A stretch of 46,794 nt of DNA from Sutterella sp. (lineage in GTDB: Bacteria; Pseudomonadota; Gammaproteobacteria; Burkholderiales; Burkholderiaceae_F), in contig NZ_JAUNSF010000003.1 in NCBI RefSeq assembly GCF_030539355.1, forward strand, positions 31,488-78,281. The letters are read 5' to 3'. How positions within the stretch are numbered: the stretch's first letter is position 1; the number at the start of each line of letters is the position of its first letter. Shown here one piece after another: positions 16,042 to 23,214 of this stretch. The translations under genes were made by a program, and so were the position numbers. Under the pieces are notes generated by a model. The model was not told the origin of the DNA and searched no databases. It saw only the letters and a list, made by a program, of their open reading frames with translations.

Positions 16042-17829
16042 TCAGTCCCTGGAGACGGGCTTCACGGCCCGCTCGAGCCAGCGTCGGCAGCGCTCGGAGA
16101 CGAGGGGCAGCAGCCGCTCGAGGCGCTCATCGTTGAAGCGGTTGAGTTGGTCGGCGAGCGCGCCGAAGGGCTCCTCGAGCGCACGCGTGTCGATCGGCAT
16201 CATCGTGAGCGCACGGAACTTGAGAAACTCGCCGAACTCCGTGGTCTCCGCCTTCTCGCAGACCATCAGGTTCTCCACGCGCACGCCCCAGGCGCCGGGC
16301 CGGTAGAGCCCGGGTTCGTCGGAGACGACGTTCCCGGCGGCGAGCGGAGTCTTCGTCGCCATGGGCGAGATCCTCACCGGATCCTCGTGCACGTTGAGCA
16401 CATAGCCCACGCCGTGGCCCGTGCCGTGGCCGTAGTCACGCCCCTCGGCCCAGAGATCCATGCGGGCGACCGCGTCGATCTGGCTCCCGGTGTAGCCCTT
16501 CGGGAAGCGCAGGCCGAGGAGCCTCAGCATGCCGCGGGTGACGAGCGTCACGTCATGCTTCATCTCCGCCGAGGGCGTGCCGACGGGGGTCATGCGGGTG
16601 ATGTCGGTCGTGCCGCAGGTGAACTGCGCGCCCGAGTCGATGAGAAGCAGCCCGTCGCCCTCGATCACCGCGCCGCCCTCCGCGGGCGGCGTGTAGTGCG
16701 GGAGCGCCGCGTTGGGGCCGAAGGCCGCGATCGTCGTGAAGCTCTCGTCGAAGAACTCCGGATCCTTCGCGCGGGAGGCGTGAAGCATCCGGGCGGCGTC
16801 GGCCTCGGTGAGCTTCTCGCCCGCCGAGAGGCGCTCGTCGAGCTCCGCGTAGAACTCCGCGAGCGCGACCGCGTCGCGGATCATCGCCTCGTCAATCGCC
16901 TCGAGCTCGCCCGCGCTCTTCACGGCCTTCAGTGTGAAGACCGGGGAGACGGCCTCGACCCGCGAGGCCGGGGGAACGAGCTTCGCGAGCGCTGCGTTCG
17001 TGTGCTCGGGGTCGAGCAGGATCCTGCGGCCGTGCTCGATGGCGAGGCCCACCGTCTCGGCGAGCTTCTCGGGCGGGAGCACCATCACGCCGTCAGCGGC
17101 GAGGCGCTCCGTCACCGCAGCGCCCACGCGCCGCGTGTCGATGAAGAGCGCAGCGCGGTCCGGGCCCACGAGGAGCGTCGAGAGGAAGACGGGGTTGCAG
17201 GGCACGTCGGCGCCCCTCAGGCCCGTGAGCCAGGCAATGTCGTCGAGCGAATTGAGGAGCGCCGCGTCGGCCTTCTCGCGGCCGAGTTCCTCGCGGACGG
17301 CCGCGAGCTTCTCCGCGCGGCTCCTGCCCGGGCGCTTCATCTCCGCCACAGGACTCGCCGGCATCGCCGGACGGTCCGGCCAGAAGGCGGCGATGTCCGG
17401 GGATTCCGTGCGGAGCCTCAGGCCGTTCAGCATGAGCGTCGACTCGAGGAGCCGCCCGTCGGCGAGCGAGATGAACTCGGCGTTCACGCCAACGATGCCG
17501 CCGGGGGAAGCATGGGCGGCGAGCCATTCGGTCGCGGCCGCGGAGGCGCGGCCCGTGAGGCGGACGAGCTCGATGCCGTCGATCAGCTGCTTCTCCGCCT
17601 GCACCCAGTAGCGGCTGTCCGTGAGAAGCGCCGCCGCATCGGGCGTCACGAGAAGCGTGCCCGCGCTTCCGGTGAAGCCCGAGAGGGCCTCGCGGATCTT
17701 CCAGTGCGCGGGAACATATTCGGAAAGATGCGGGTCCGAGGTGGGCACAATGACCGCCGCGAGACCGAGACGCGCCATCTCGGCGCGGAAAAGCTGCAGG
17801 CGATCGCCCGCACTGAGTGTCTGAGGCAT
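16042..17829 (-). CDS. pepP: Xaa-Pro aminopeptidase, M24 family, three-domain form
   Basis: At 595 residues this is the long form with two creatinase-like N-terminal domains (about 8-160 and 170-300) and a C-terminal pita-bread catalytic domain, like eukaryotic XPNPEP1; E. coli PepP is shorter (about 440). It removes N-terminal residues preceding proline. Two-metal ligands are all visible: D398 (LLLIDSG), D409 (TTDITRM), H472 (GHGTGHGVGY), E505 (SDEPGLY) and E519 (RVENLM). GAAGGAAA precedes the ATG. It is the last gene of a probable reverse-strand operon, 54 bases after the lipoprotein gene. The symbol is used broadly, for an aminopeptidase P. Confidence 0.93.
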   Translation of the reverse strand: MPQTLSAGDRLQLFRAEMARLGLAAVIVPTSDPHLSEYVPAHWKIREALSGFTGSAGTLLVTPDAAALLTDSRYWVQAEKQLIDGIELVRLTGRASAAATEWLAAHASPGGIVGVNAEFISLADGRLLESTLMLNGLRLRTESPDIAAFWPDRPAMPASPVAEMKRPGRSRAEKLAAVREELGREKADAALLNSLDDIAWLTGLRGADVPCNPVFLSTLLVGPDRAALFIDTRRVGAAVTERLAADGVMVLPPEKLAETVGLAIEHGRRILLDPEHTNAALAKLVPPASRVEAVSPVFTLKAVKSAGELEAIDEAMIRDAVALAEFYAELDERLSAGEKLTEADAARMLHASRAKDPEFFDESFTTIAAFGPNAALPHYTPPAEGGAVIEGDGLLLIDSGAQFTCGTTDITRMTPVGTPSAEMKHDVTLVTRGMLRLLGLRFPKGYTGSQIDAVARMDLWAEGRDYGHGTGHGVGYVLNVHEDPVRISPMATKTPLAAGNVVSDEPGLYRPGAWGVRVENLMVCEKAETTEFGEFLKFRALTMMPIDTRALEEPFGALADQLNRFNDERLERLLPLVSERCRRWLERAVKPVSRD

Positions 17830-17883
17830 GACGTTTCCTTCGCTGTCAGGCCGTGGGGATCCGCCCGGAGGGCGGCAGAGCCG

Positions 17884-18234
17884 TCAGAAGAGCTTGCGGA
17901 TCATCACGGTGACGGGAAAGCCCACGTGCTTCTCGCTCTCCACGTCGCCGCCGATGTCGAGGCTGACGACGCGCCAGCCGGCGTCACGCAGCTCGTCGAG
18001 CGTCGCGGACACGCCGAGATCGGCGCAGGCGAAGGGCGTCTCCTTCACGCGCGAGAGCACCGTGACGGGACGCTCCGTCGTGCAGGTCGTCTCGGAGTGA
18101 TAGGGCGCGTCGAGGAGCGGATCGCGTGCGGCGGCGCCCGAGGCGCCGGAGCCCGATCCCGGCGCGGCGCAGCCCGCGAGGAGCGCGGCCGCGGCCGTGG
18201 ATGCAAGTGCCGCACGAGTGAGGAAGCTGTTCAT
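17884..18234 (-). CDS. Small lipoprotein of unknown function
   Basis: The 116-residue protein has a lipoprotein signal peptide with lipobox LLAGC, so lipid attachment at C22. After a Gly/Ser/Ala-rich linker (about 23-38), a small mixed domain contains two further cysteines, in TTCTTERP and in PFACADLG, which could form a disulfide in the periplasm. I do not recognise the family. It sits 40 bases after the pseudo-helicase stop and 54 before pepP, on the same strand, with GGGAA before the ATG. No second-position aspartate is present (the residue after the cysteine is alanine), so outer-membrane sorting is more likely than inner-membrane retention. Confidence 0.75.
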   Translation of the reverse strand: MNSFLTRAALASTAAAALLAGCAAPGSGSGASGAAARDPLLDAPYHSETTCTTERPVTVLSRVKETPFACADLGVSATLDELRDAGWRVVSLDIGGDVESEKHVGFPVTVMIRKLF

Positions 18235-18274
18235 GAGTTGTTCCCGTGAATAAAGCTCTCTGATTCTACGGTCC

Positions 18275-21200
18275 TCATTCGCCGGCGGGCTTCTTCGGAG
18301 GCCTGAAGCCGCCCGACTTTTTCTGCCCGTTACGATTCTGGCCGTGGAAGCTGCCGCCCTTGTTCTTCTGACGGTTGAACTTCTTCCTCTGGCCGCCCTC
18401 CTTCATGCCGGGCATGCCGCCCGCCGTGGCGCCGGTGAGATAGCTCGGGCGCGGGGCGTCGCCGGGCATCGTCTGCGCGAAGGAGAGCGTCTGCGGACGG
18501 TCGGCGCCGTAGGCGTCGGTCTGCTGCCAGGGCATCGCCGGGCGCTTCTGCTGCTTGGGCTGATAGTGGATGGAGTTGCCGAAGTTGTCGTCAGGGAGGT
18601 CATCCCAGTCGCGCGGAGCCGCGGACTGCGGCTGCTGATCCGGACCGGCGGGCCTGCGGTCGCGCTTCTTCTGGAAGGGCTTGCGGTCGCGGCGCTGCTG
18701 GTTCTTCTTTCTCGCGGGCTTCTGGCCCTCCGGCTTTCCGGCGTCCTTCTGGCCCTGGGGCGCGCCCTCTCCTGAGGAGACGGGGGCCGCGTTCGTTACG
18801 GGCGGCTGGGGAGCCGCCTGGGGAACAGCGGGAGCCGCGGAAACTGCAGGAACGGACGCGGGGGCGGCGACGGGTGCCGTCTCGGGAGCCGCCGCCTGAG
18901 CGGAGACATCCTTCGCCTCGGCGGGCTTGCCGTCCTGAGCGCGCGGCTTCTTCCCGCGCTTCTGCCAGTCCTTCGACTTGCGCTTCTGATTGTTGTTCCA
19001 GTTGTCGCGGCGCTTCTTGTGCTGGCCGTTCGGGCGCTGCTCCTGACCGGGCAGGCCGGCCGCGTCCGTCACGCTCGGCACGGTGAGCGCCTCGCTCATG
19101 CCGAGCGACTCTCCGCCCGCTCCGATTCTGGGCGGTTCCTCGAGATTGCGGCGCTTCGGCTGACGGCGCTGCTGCTGCCCGCCCTGCTGCTGACGGTTCT
19201 TCTGGTACTTCGCGTTCTTCTGATTCTTCTGGTTCTTCTGGGCATTCTGCGAGGGCTTCTTCTTTTTCTGCCCGGACTTCTCGCCCGGGAGACGGCCGCC
19301 CGGATTGGCGGCGAGAATGCCCTCGAGCTCCGGCTGCGCCTGGTTTTTCTTCTTCGGGCGCTTCATCGTGCCGCGGCGGCCGACCATCTGATGCGTGAGA
19401 TGCTCGCTGCCCCGCGCCTCGCGGCGCATGCGGGCCTGAGCGGCACGCAGCTCGACCGTGTTGGAGCTGAGCGGCTCGGTGATCGTCACCGAGGGAGCGT
19501 CCTCCTCGCGGGGCACGTAGCCCGAGCGGATCGTGAGCGTGCGGCGCTTCGGCGCCTCCTCGACGATCTCATCGGACTCATCCTCTTCGTCGGGCTCTTC
19601 CTCAAAGTCATTCTCGTATTCATCCGACGCCCCAACGGATTCGTCGTCCTCGGTCTCGTACGCCTCGTCCTCATCGGATTCTTCGTCGTAGTCGCCGGCG
19701 TCCTCCGAGTCCTCACCGGACTCGTACTCGTCCGCGTCTTCCTCATCCTCCGAGTCGTAATCCTCTTCCGAATCCTCCTCGGACTCGTCGTAACCGGATT
19801 CCTCGTCGAACGCCTCCTCGGAAGCGTCCTCGGACTCCTCAGCGGGCGATTCGTCCGGAACCTCTCCGGGGCCTGCGGACACCTCCGTGGCCTCCTCAGC
19901 CCGGGTCTCCGGAGCGGGTTCCTCTGCCGGGGCATCAGGCACGGCGGTCTCTGCGGAATCCTCCTCAGCGGCGACAGGTTCGGAGACCTGCGCAGCCTCC
20001 GCCGCAGGTTCGTTCACGACCGCGGCAGGCTCCTCGGGGACGACGATGAAGATGTCGTCCGTTCCCGGAACCGTTTCCTCTGCGGCCTGAACGGGCACGT
20101 CGACCGGATTCTCCGGAGCGGGAGCCGCGGCATCCGCGGCGGCGGCGCGCTTTCTCGGCCGGCCGGGGTAGGCCTTCGCAATCCTGAAGGCCGTCCGGCG
20201 GGGCCGTCCGAGCTTCGACGCCTTCTTCTCGGCGGGTTCGGGAGTCTCCGGGACAAGGCCGGCGAGGCTGATGAGCGAGAGCATCTCGGGCGACAGCCCG
20301 GAGTCGTCCTGCTCCGCCCGGGCCCTCGCCCAGGCGTCCTGCTCCTTCTCGCGCGCGCGAAGCTCGTCGATTGTCTCGAGCTCGGCGGGATCGATGTCGT
20401 GCGGCTTGTTCTCCGGGTTGTTGTAGAGCTTCCAGCGGTCGTGCCCGAGCTGGGTCTTGAGCGACAGGTATCCGTCGACCTGCTCATAAGCGAAGTAGAC
20501 CGTGATGCGGCCGCCCCGGCAGCGCTCCTTCGAGGGCTCAAAGTCCGCGAGCGCGGCGAGGTCCTCAAGGATCTCCGCACTCTGCGGCGGCGTCACGACG
20601 AACACCGCGTCAAAGAAGCCCTGGGGAAACAGTCCGCGGGCCACCTCGTGGAAGACGGCGCAGCGGCAGCCGGTGTTCCTGAAGCGCGCCTTCGCGGCGA
20701 CCTCCGTCAGATCACCGGTGAAGACCTGCGCGACGATGCCGCGCTTCAGCATCTCGTCGCAGAAGCGGTCGGCACGCTTGCGGTCGCAGACGATGGCGAA
20801 CCTCGCCTTCGGCGGGAGCGCCGCAACGGCGCTGAAGAGCCGGCCGGTCTTCTGGAACTTGCTGCCGAGCTCGAACCGCTCGAGAACCCGGGGCGGCCGG
20901 TGCGCCGCACCGATGCGGACGAACTCAAGGCCGGGGAAATGCTCCTTCACAACCGCCTCAAGCGCCTCGGACCATTCGTCCGAGAGCATCGATACGTTCC
21001 GGCGGACCGCCTCGGGGAACTGCGAGAGGAACTTCAGGAGGTACTCGCGGGAGTCCGGGTCGACGATGAGCTCCCCGGCCTCGCAGATCCAGATCTGCTC
21101 GATAGCGGAGAGATCGAGGCCGAGCTCCACGGCCTTCTCGATGAACGCGGCGGGGCCGGCGACCAGGTCGACGCCATGGATGATCCTGCGGCGCCGGGCG

Positions 21201-21547
21201 TAATCCTGCCCCATTCCCGCGGCGAATGCCTTGAGCGGCGAGCGGCCGGCGAACTTCCGGAACTTCTCCTCGATTGCGCAGCCCTTCTCCACCGTGGAGG
21301 TGAGGACGAGCACGGAGGGCGCGCGGCCCGTCTCCGGTTTTCCGTCCCCGGCGGCTGCCTCGAGCCGCGCGCGGATGGCAATGAGCATCGCCAGGATCTT
21401 GCCGCTGCCGCCGTGCGCGCAGGTGAGCGTGGTCCGGCCCGTCATGGCGCTCCGGAGGATCGCCGCCTGGGCAGGCAGCAGGTCCCTGAGCTTCAGAGCC
21501 TCAAGCAGTCTGATGACTGCTGCTGAAAATGATGCGGTTGAATACAC
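18275..21547 (-). CDS. Degenerate DEAD-box helicase-like protein with a very long charged tail
   Basis: The protein has 1090 residues from a GTG start at 21547. Residues 1-335 follow the DEAD-box plan but with key residues changed. LLPAQAAILRSAMTGR (23-38) resembles the Q motif; AHGGSGKI (44-51) stands for AxTGxGKT; ICEAG (154-158) stands for VLDEAD; MLSDE (187-191) stands for SAT; FTGDL and HEVARGL (276-306) resemble the second RecA domain; no HRIGRTGR motif follows. ATP hydrolysis is therefore doubtful. Residues 430-560 are Pro/Ala/Glu-rich, 565-662 extremely Asp/Glu/Ser-rich, and 700-1090 Lys/Arg/Gln/Asn-rich with QKNQKNQKN-like and Gly-rich stretches, as in disordered RNA-binding scaffolds. 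An RNA-associated structural role is inferred. It precedes the lipoprotein gene by 40 bases. Confidence 0.8.
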   Translation of the reverse strand: MYSTASFSAAVIRLLEALKLRDLLPAQAAILRSAMTGRTTLTCAHGGSGKILAMLIAIRARLEAAAGDGKPETGRAPSVLVLTSTVEKGCAIEEKFRKFAGRSPLKAFAAGMGQDYARRRRIIHGVDLVAGPAAFIEKAVELGLDLSAIEQIWICEAGELIVDPDSREYLLKFLSQFPEAVRRNVSMLSDEWSEALEAVVKEHFPGLEFVRIGAAHRPPRVLERFELGSKFQKTGRLFSAVAALPPKARFAIVCDRKRADRFCDEMLKRGIVAQVFTGDLTEVAAKARFRNTGCRCAVFHEVARGLFPQGFFDAVFVVTPPQSAEILEDLAALADFEPSKERCRGGRITVYFAYEQVDGYLSLKTQLGHDRWKLYNNPENKPHDIDPAELETIDELRAREKEQDAWARARAEQDDSGLSPEMLSLISLAGLVPETPEPAEKKASKLGRPRRTAFRIAKAYPGRPRKRAAAADAAAPAPENPVDVPVQAAEETVPGTDDIFIVVPEEPAAVVNEPAAEAAQVSEPVAAEEDSAETAVPDAPAEEPAPETRAEEATEVSAGPGEVPDESPAEESEDASEEAFDEESGYDESEEDSEEDYDSEDEEDADEYESGEDSEDAGDYDEESDEDEAYETEDDESVGASDEYENDFEEEPDEEDESDEIVEEAPKRRTLTIRSGYVPREEDAPSVTITEPLSSNTVELRAAQARMRREARGSEHLTHQMVGRRGTMKRPKKKNQAQPELEGILAANPGGRLPGEKSGQKKKKPSQNAQKNQKNQKNAKYQKNRQQQGGQQQRRQPKRRNLEEPPRIGAGGESLGMSEALTVPSVTDAAGLPGQEQRPNGQHKKRRDNWNNNQKRKSKDWQKRGKKPRAQDGKPAEAKDVSAQAAAPETAPVAAPASVPAVSAAPAVPQAAPQPPVTNAAPVSSGEGAPQGQKDAGKPEGQKPARKKNQQRRDRKPFQKKRDRRPAGPDQQPQSAAPRDWDDLPDDNFGNSIHYQPKQQKRPAMPWQQTDAYGADRPQTLSFAQTMPGDAPRPSYLTGATAGGMPGMKEGGQRKKFNRQKNKGGSFHGQNRNGQKKSGGFRPPKKPAGE

Positions 21548-22258
21548 GAGTTGAAGCCTGTATGACTGTCAAATGTCCTCAGTCCCGTCCCGCGCGCCCG
21601 TGCGCTTTCAACATGCGGCACGGCGCGCCCTTCTTCCCTCGGGCGGAATTCGGACTCCGGCCGCGCTGAACGCACGCAAGCGCGCTTCACCGCGGACGGA
21701 TCGGAAATCTGGATCGAAATATGCATTCCCGTGCGTTTCCCGCAGGGGAACTTCAGGGGCGGGCGCCCGGTCCCCCGCGGGGATGCGCTGCGGCCCTGAC
21801 AGGGGAACGGATTCCCCCGGTGATGCTGGTATGACTCGCTGTGGACCGGTGTCGGGATCCCTCGGATCCCGGAGCGCAGCGGATGCGCCTGAAGCTTTCC
21901 ATGAGGCTTTCGCCTCCAGCCTTCCCTTCTTGCGTCGCCCTGAAGTTACATCAGGCGGGGCGGGAACGATCCTCCCGGAGCTCCCTCTTTCCTTGATCGG
22001 CAACGGCGGTTTCGAGATGCGCCCGCGAAGATTTTTCCGGGCGGCTCGGACGGGGACGGCCCGGCCATCGAGTGATTGGGATTCTATCAAAGGAGGGCGG
22101 CGGTGAGCCCCGGAAATGACACTCACTGCAACACAATTCAAACGCAGCGGAGCCTCTGCCTCTGAAAAGCTATGATTCGTCCGTCGGATGAAGCCCGGGA
22201 AACGGCATCATCCCATCCTTTCCGAACTTTTTCTTCATCACCATAAGGAACTCGAGCC
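21548..22258. other. 711-base intergenic region with no recognised gene
   Basis: It separates the divergent pseudo-helicase and FKBP genes. Open frames of about 177 codons exist on both strands, but their products are Arg/Ser/Pro/Gly-rich, lack motifs, overlap each other and lack the third-position GC bias of true genes here. A perfect dyad, cgggatcc-ctc-ggatcccg, lies at 21853-21871. TATGAT at 22171-22176 could be the -10 box of the FKBP gene, without a good -35. I see no tRNA, RNase P, SRP or tmRNA signature. A small RNA cannot be excluded. Confidence 0.45.
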
Positions 22259-22588
22259 ATGGCGCTTCAGGAACTCATCATCGAGGACATCGTTGAGGGC
22301 GAAGGCCCCGCCGTCAAAGCCGGCGACAACATCAGCGTCCACTACACGGGCAAGTTCGAGGACGGCACCGTCTTCGACTCGAGCATCGGCGGCGACCCGA
22401 TCCAGTTCCCCTGCGGACGCGGCTACGTCATCCCGGGCTGGGACCAGGGCCTGATCGGCCTCAAGGTGGGCGGCAAGCGCCGTCTCTCCATCCCCTACCG
22501 CCTTGCCTACGGCGAGGCCGGCTATCCGGGCGCCATTCCGCCCAAGGCCGACCTCTACTTTGACGTCGAGCTCGTCCGCATCTACTGA
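22259..22588 (+). CDS. FKBP-type peptidyl-prolyl cis-trans isomerase, short cytoplasmic form
   Basis: The 109-residue protein is a single FKBP domain with no signal peptide. Active-site residues typical of FKBP12 are in place: the YTGKFEDGTVFDSS segment (29-42), the GWDQGLIGLKVGGKRRLSIP segment (60-79), and YGEAGYPGAIPP (85-96), ending in an FDVELVRI strand. It should speed proline isomerisation in protein folding. AAGGAA precedes the ATG. Its stop codon overlaps the end of the convergent maf gene by 7 bases, so the two 3' ends are antisense to each other and no terminator separates them. Confidence 0.93.
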   Translation: MALQELIIEDIVEGEGPAVKAGDNISVHYTGKFEDGTVFDSSIGGDPIQFPCGRGYVIPGWDQGLIGLKVGGKRRLSIPYRLAYGEAGYPGAIPPKADLYFDVELVRIY

Positions 22589-23214
22589 CCGAGCACGGGC
22601 GCCGGGGCGCCGTACGCTGCGAGAAGCTCCGCGGTCTCGCAGACCGGCAGCCCCATGATCGCCGTGTAGCTTCCCGTGATCGAACTCACGAAGAGGCCGG
22701 CGATCCCCTGGATGCCGTATCCGCCCGCCTTGTCCCAGGGCTCGTCCGTGGCGACATAGGAGGCGATCTCCTCATCCGTGAGCGCCTTCATGCGGACCTT
22801 CGAGAGGACGACCGCCGTGCGGTAGTCGTCCTTCGAGCGCCCGACCGCGACCGCGGTGCGCACGCTGTGCTCGCGGCCCGCCATGGCACGCAGGAAGGCC
22901 GTCGCCTCCGCGGCGTCGCGGGGCTTGCCGAGAATCCTCCCGTCGAGGCTCACCACCGTGTCGGCGGCCACCACCGGCGCGCCGGGCACGGGCGAATCAA
23001 GCTCGTCACGGGCGGCAATGCCGTCCATCAGCTTCGTCACGGCCGTGCGCAGCACGTACGCCTCGGGCGTCTCGTCGGGCATCTCCTCTTCGTCGCCCGC
23101 GAACCAGCCGCGGGGTTCCGTCGGGTCGGAGAGCACCTCCACCCGCCAGCCGTAGGCCGAGAGCAGCTCCCGGCGGCGCGGGCTCTTGCTTGCGAGATAG
23201 ATCGTCGCTGTCAT
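22582..23214 (-). CDS. maf: Maf-family nucleoside triphosphate pyrophosphatase
   Basis: Maf is 210 residues from ATG 23214, which follows a strong GGAGGAG; the frame is open upstream but without such a site. Maf proteins hydrolyse selected NTPs (YhdE prefers dTTP/UTP) or modified nucleotides to the monophosphate. SKSPRRRELL (8-17) is the family N-terminal loop, the catalytic acid lies in VVAADTVVS, and WDKAGGYGIQG is the conserved substrate loop. An acidic insert (GDEEEMPDET) follows the first strand. It is the last gene in the hyp-nadD-rsfS-rlmH-maf series, 23 bases after rlmH, and overlaps the FKBP gene tail to tail. Confidence 0.92.
   Translation of the reverse strand: MTATIYLASKSPRRRELLSAYGWRVEVLSDPTEPRGWFAGDEEEMPDETPEAYVLRTAVTKLMDGIAARDELDSPVPGAPVVAADTVVSLDGRILGKPRDAAEATAFLRAMAGREHSVRTAVAVGRSKDDYRTAVVLSKVRMKALTDEEIASYVATDEPWDKAGGYGIQGIAGLFVSSITGSYTAIMGLPVCETAELLAAYGAPAPVLGQ

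Follow-up and report, generated by a model that had tools for sequence, protein, structure and literature searches.

An RhlE orthologue in Sutterella with degraded helicase motifs and conserved tail segments: a candidate pseudohelicase

What becomes of a helicase gene that stays at its locus after its helicase motifs have gone? The question is raised by a minus-strand gene in a 46,794-nucleotide stretch of Sutterella sp. DNA (assembly GCF_030539355.1, contig NZ_JAUNSF010000003.1, positions 31,488 to 78,281; hereafter the window), where positions 18275..21547 of the window encode, from a GTG start, a protein of 1090 residues. A first-pass annotation had described a DEAD-box layout with altered motifs (GKI, CEAG and LSD, with no HRIGRTGR), an acidic block, a basic Q/N/G-rich tail of disordered appearance and, linked to the gene, a lipoprotein gene and pepP. 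All of these stood up to the searches, composition and genome comparisons reported here, but the tail proved to hold two conserved segments. We consider it fairly likely that this gene is an orthologue of the bacterial DEAD-box RNA helicase RhlE that was converted, within Sutterella, to a pseudohelicase scaffold working through docking motifs.

The gene was compared across 12 Sutterella genomes, including that of the window (G000), within a family set of 67 genomes that also includes 5 of the genus Mesosutterella and 10 of a third genus; each species is represented by one genome, and some genomes are incomplete. The G004 copy likewise begins with GTG, and in G003 a GTG lies in frame at the equivalent position. 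Residues 1-385 (20393..21547, minus strand) form a degenerate DEAD-box core, which scores 28.5 bits against Pfam DEAD over residues 25-168 (cut-off 26), weakly matches NCBIfam helicase models (best DbpA, 37.2 bits, residues 2-306) and finds a DEAD-box protein among PDB chains by phmmer (E 7.7e-9, residues 14-329). Pfam DEAD is also above its cut-off in G001, G002, G003, G004 and G005. When eight degenerate cores (G000, G002, G003, G004, G005, G007, G010, G011) were aligned by hhalign with a profile of 46 canonical sequences, all eight matched end-to-end at 97.0-99.7% probability (99.7% over 375 columns for the window core), whereas 40 shuffles of the same cores never exceeded 0.7% and five unrelated neighbouring proteins never exceeded 0.1%. 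The core is accordingly covered by the sequence profile across both predicted RecA-like domains.

The motifs that distinguish an active helicase are altered throughout this core. Motif I reads AHGGSGKI (residues 44-51, 21395..21418, minus strand) where Mesosutterella RhlE has AQTGTGKT, so that GSGKI (residues 47-51) replaces the GxGKT of active enzymes; motif II reads WICEAG (residues 153-158, 21074..21091, minus strand) where Mesosutterella RhlE has VLDEAD, leaving CEAG (residues 155-158) for DEAD; and motif III is LSD or SDE in place of SAT, depending on a one-residue ambiguity in the alignment. The HRIGRTGR motif is absent. Degenerate copies occupy the same locus in 10 of the 12 Sutterella genomes: nine were tabulated after mapping onto the canonical helicase profile (G000, G001, G002, G003, G004, G005, G007, G010, G011), and the G006 copy, broken in its assembly, was judged only by eye, its frames containing ambiguous bases. 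Within Sutterella, intact motifs (GSGKT, DEGD, SAT and HRVGRTSR) occur only in G008 and G009, two close relatives whose PepP proteins are 91% identical to each other. None of the nine tabulated copies retains motif II, III or VI, or motif Ia (PTRELA) or Ib (TPGR), in intact form, with the alignment uncertain where MAFFT and hhalign differ (motif II in G004, III in G000 and I in G011, where hhalign pairs a lysine and MAFFT an arginine). These motif data support a core that is catalytically dead by motif criteria, with a loss conserved across the genus. Because every tabulated copy lacks motifs III and VI but the state of I and II differs from one copy to the next, coupling may have been the first function to be lost. 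Motifs Ia and Ib are RNA-contact motifs, and since neither is intact in any of the nine copies, there is no support for RNA binding of the canonical kind by the core, although it may persist; binding of RNA by the basic tail would be at least as plausible.

The first-pass annotation had reasoned that loss conserved across the genus would favour a pseudo-enzyme, and that intact homologues beside a single decayed copy would speak against one. The loss is conserved as described, and intact homologues do exist, in two of the 12 Sutterella genomes, in Mesosutterella and in other genera; the decayed copy is not a single one, however, as most of the genus carries degenerate copies, with long frames and, in one species pair, purifying selection. 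A sequencing artefact or pseudogene was rejected on similar grounds, since nine further Sutterella genomes carry a degenerate copy at this locus, with a long frame in eight, and codon changes show constraint in one pair. Ambiguous bases and apparent changes of frame mark the G006 copy (L101 4970-7006, from a canine metagenome assembly), but pepP of that assembly has ambiguous bases as well, and assembly quality is the likely cause.

Which helicase was lost can be read from the locus. In all 12 Sutterella genomes the locus lies between maf and pepP and runs from the helicase-like gene through a small lipoprotein-like gene to pepP, and the same helicase, lipoprotein, pepP order is found at two Mesosutterella loci (G055 and M. 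porci, whose helicases are 99% identical) and in six outgroup genomes from four other genera that carry an intact helicase at the locus (G030, G022, G024, G060, G063, G045). This linkage is thus real and old. Against the NCBIfam RhlE model the locus gene scores 562-586 bits in all four outgroup genomes searched and 317-320 in G008 and G009, falling at the degenerate loci to 50 in G003, 43 in G005, 25 in G001 and 22.4 in G000, with nothing reported at the locus in G002, G004, G006, G007, G010 and G011. The curated cut-off of 743 bits is passed in none of the 16 genomes searched, intact copies reaching at most 586. In a tree of canonical sequences the intact Sutterella copies fall within a clade (support 95) of 20 of the 46 sequences that holds all 12 locus RhlEs. 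Inside this clade the copies of G008 and G009 group with those of G060, G063 and G045 (support 93), where the species tree would predict Mesosutterella; long branches are the likely cause, and transfer is possible. When the degenerate copies were included in a tree their placement was uninformative. Because of the synteny and of a tail motif in common with intact RhlE, the window gene is shown to be the positional orthologue of RhlE, and origin from another DEAD-box paralogue was rejected on the same two counts. Other DEAD-box genes (>280 bits) are present besides the locus gene, two in 10 of the 12 Sutterella genomes and one in each of G004 and G005; the 14 such loci checked (at least one per Sutterella genome) all have GxGKT, DE(A/G)D, SAT and HRxGR.

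Beyond the core, the window protein carries a tail of ∼705 residues, compared with ∼212-214 in its intact relatives. A linker leads to an acidic block (residues 565-662, 19562..19855, minus strand) of 60% D/E and 13% S with no K/R and a net charge of -59, while residues 700-1090 have a net charge of +47, with 20% K/R and 28% Q/N/G, and include a basic Q/N/G-rich, disordered-like region (residues 736-980, 18608..19342, minus strand). By charge-hydropathy the core is folded-like (+0.21) and all six tail sections are disordered-like (-0.05 to -1.0). The tail is not featureless: its two conserved segments are the most conserved parts of the protein (RRTLTIR...TITEPLSS...THQxV and DNFGNSIHY...MP). 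In the window protein the first of these is a middle block, RRTLTIR...TITEPLSS...LTHQMVGRRGT (residues 668-730, 19358..19546, minus strand), and the second a C-terminal motif, DDNFGNSIHY...TLSFAQTMP (residues 986-1028, 18464..18592, minus strand). DNFGNSIHY is invariant in a 12-row alignment, with G003 (DFGNSIHY) outside those rows.

The two segments differ in their distribution. The C-terminal motif is already present in the intact RhlE of relatives, and a model of it matches 22 of the 67 family genomes: all 12 from Sutterella, all 5 from Mesosutterella and 5 of the 10 in the third genus. Nineteen of these 22 matches lie in frames of at least 588 residues and those in G006, G023 and G025 in shorter ones, the G023 and G025 matches being counted without confirmation that the gene is the helicase. 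Of the five matches that a search of 399 evenly sampled genomes of the order returned at E 0.01, two are weak and short. An exact pattern scan of one genome per species (84,980 species) gave 22 matches, of which 11 were confirmed: nine in Sutterella, one in Mesosutterella porci and one in a Chitinophagaceae record, the last of which spans 11 residues and was taken as chance. A full-length search of genome contigs confirmed none of 23 pattern stretches. The middle block, searched with a seven-row model, matches G000, G001, G002, G003, G004, G007 and G010 at E ≤2e-29 and has no confident match elsewhere in the 67 family genomes, where four weak matches (E 3.7e-4 to 0.0067) lie in frames of at most 148 residues, three of them with stops. 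All that stands in its place is RREKLTIR in G005, G006 and G011, and RPRTLTV in the intact copies of G008 and G009. An IF2-like identity, of which the block is reminiscent, was set aside because no such family is among the Pfam matches of the window and related proteins. Mobile origin was likewise rejected, with no match in plasmids and no relative of the middle block in viral contigs.

To gauge constraint we compared the ratio of non-synonymous to synonymous substitution rates (dN/dS) in one degenerate pair (G001 versus G004) and one intact pair (G008/G009). Both halves of the degenerate core (RecA1 0.126, RecA2 0.163) resemble the pepP control (0.121), so that the core is under purifying selection in this pair; values are lowest in the middle block (0.020), followed by the C-terminal motif (0.076) and the C-terminus (0.079), with the basic region at 0.163. 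The gene is derived from a helicase and degraded in its motifs, and selection, as seen in one species pair, has kept it, which are the sequence traits of a pseudohelicase. Over longer distances, divergence of the core is very rapid. Its identity is 22-30% in the seven wider degenerate pairs compared, where PepP is 49-63%, while in five outgroup pairs it is 59-77% where PepP is 42-46%.

If the gene is such a scaffold, the core would serve as a structural or protein-binding module that no longer unwinds RNA, and unwinding may be covered by the remaining canonical DEAD-box helicases. The two conserved tail segments would dock fixed protein partners, and the acidic and basic arms may provide an electrostatic hold on RNA or ribonucleoproteins. 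Intact RhlE has the C-terminal motif too, so that docking would be older than the loss of the enzyme and was probably already among the tasks of RhlE in this family. A role in RNA granules or the degradosome, raised by the first-pass annotation, may be conceivable; RhlE is described as associating with the degradosome in Caulobacter (PMC5472812).

A number of observations weigh against this account. Pfam DEAD falls below its cut-off in G011 and is absent in G007 and G010; the dN/dS values for degenerate copies come from a single pair, in which constraint is weak on the linker (0.354) and on the acidic block (0.319); and the C-terminal motif of the intact pair, at 0.332 with few changes, shows no special constraint (core 0.085). 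The contrast between core and PepP is weaker in G001/G004 (80% versus 87%) and in G005/G011 (51% versus 57%). Remnants of motifs survive in some degenerate copies: the Ia arginine in three of nine (G002, G005, G011), parts of Ib, EVARGL at the motif V position in G000 and, closest to motif II, DEAE in G005. Seven of the nine tabulated copies still have the GxGK of motif I, and four have GxGKT, which leaves room for nucleotide binding by the core. On this rests the best of the alternatives, a nucleotide-sensing switch in which ATP is still bound through motif I, nothing is unwound and the nucleotide state controls docking. We regard it as unlikely, as the glycine-rich loop of motif I is lost in G007, G011 and, by eye, G006, which argues against a need across the genus, and not one of the nine copies keeps motif II, III or VI.

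The fast divergence of the core would also fit relaxed constraint, and with it a relic in decay, that is, a helicase being lost whose open reading frame persists and of which only the tail motif is used. The 22-30% identity between species in seven pairs, the differences in motif loss among species and the broken G006 copy all point this way. The intact G009 copy is itself divergent, being 42-43% identical to two outgroup RhlEs (PepP 38-39%), so that rapid change is seen outside the dead copies too and began before or without motif loss; this makes the scaffold slightly less likely and a relic slightly more so. Nine of the 10 degenerate copies nevertheless have long open frames, the core dN/dS resembles that of pepP in the one pair available, and end-to-end profile homology is kept in every core tested, and we consider outright decay quite unlikely. 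Very unlikely, finally, is a neofunctionalised superfamily 2-like enzyme or RNA chaperone with altered chemistry, since the core, although constrained in one pair despite its motif loss, has only eight nearly invariant residues across ten aligned sequences and no alternative catalytic set apparent by eye.

How often the scaffold would have arisen depends on the position of the intact pair. A tree of seven proteins groups G005, G006 and G011 (support 100) and the seven genomes with the middle block (support 89), but supports the position of G008/G009 at only 50. The approximately unbiased test retains all three placements (pair basal, p 0.305; with G005/G006/G011, 0.619; with the larger group, 0.482), and catalysis would thus have been lost once or twice within Sutterella. 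A fuller history, which we offer tentatively and on balance rather doubt, is that a helicase was turned in place, without duplication and possibly twice in the genus, into a non-catalytic scaffold in which an old docking motif of the tail was indispensable, and that a second, near-invariant docking block was added in one lineage after or along with the death of the enzyme.

Compared with known systems, the window protein resembles RhlE in genomic position, two-domain profile and a C-terminal motif that is the same as in intact Sutterella and Mesosutterella RhlE, and differs in its altered catalytic motifs, longer tail and added acidic and middle blocks. As described in a 2022 paper (PMC9539457), Utp25/Def, a pseudohelicase of the yeast small-subunit processome presented there as only the second proposed, likewise has a DEAD-box-derived core with vestigial motifs and a disordered arm; it is eukaryotic, its arm is N-terminal and its proposed origin is by gene duplication, whereas the Sutterella orthologue changed at its own locus. 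Among bacteria, the PriA orthologue of Deinococcus radiodurans offers a parallel, since in that lineage it no longer has ATPase or unwinding activity but still fulfils binding roles; it is a DNA helicase whose loss of activity was measured, and the abstract of PMC4504706 reports no long charged tail. The C-terminal degradosome scaffold of RNase E (PMC4435900, PMC11964227) also has a disordered tail with short partner-docking motifs, attached in that case to an active nuclease, and the likeness to the Sutterella tail is by description only. Judged by title, the literature matches listed, which leave most subscription literature uncovered, include neither a bacterial DEAD-box pseudohelicase nor this protein, the only pseudohelicases among them being Utp25 and Deinococcus PriA.

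Because a single genus has intact, partly degraded and extreme forms of the gene at the same locus, it offers a direct way to study in what order losses occurred and what the protein does without ATP. A gene kept in place with short tail segments that hardly change suggests a docking scaffold instead of an enzyme, and suggests that part of the job of RhlE in this family is done by the tail and not by unwinding.

The remaining features of the locus are more conventional. A 40-bp gap downstream of the pseudohelicase gene is followed by the small syntenic gene (17884..18234, minus strand), lipoprotein-like by eye and with no Pfam or NCBIfam family, and by the syntenic pepP (16042..17829, minus strand), an M24 metallopeptidase of the aminopeptidase P type. 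The divergent neighbour is an FKBP-type isomerase gene (22259..22588, plus strand), present at the locus in eight of the 12 Sutterella genomes and not at those of G002, G007, G008 and G009; Pfam confirms the M24 peptidase, FKBP and Maf labels. Between the divergent pseudohelicase and FKBP genes lies a 711-bp gap (21548-22258); the 5′ intergenic DNA aligns poorly, with little conservation across five species, and no structured RNA leader was found in window positions 17800-22700 by Rfam at E up to 0.1. In G001 an IS110-type transposase (Pfam; L053 1701-3068, minus strand) sits between a succinate dehydrogenase/fumarate reductase subunit gene and pepP, with no IS110-type open reading frame among those of L052, L054 and L055. 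Opposite the pseudohelicase gene is an antisense open reading frame of 835 residues (19019-21526, plus strand), and some relatives also have long antisense frames; it is probably a shadow of GC-rich coding DNA, and was rejected as a true gene on the low dN/dS of the minus-strand frame (the antisense frame itself was outside the test). The FKBP isomerase is single-domain in the window species, and several relatives have two or three tandem FKBP matches per frame (∼225-416 residues), as at L055 8073-9107 and L109 5205-6227.

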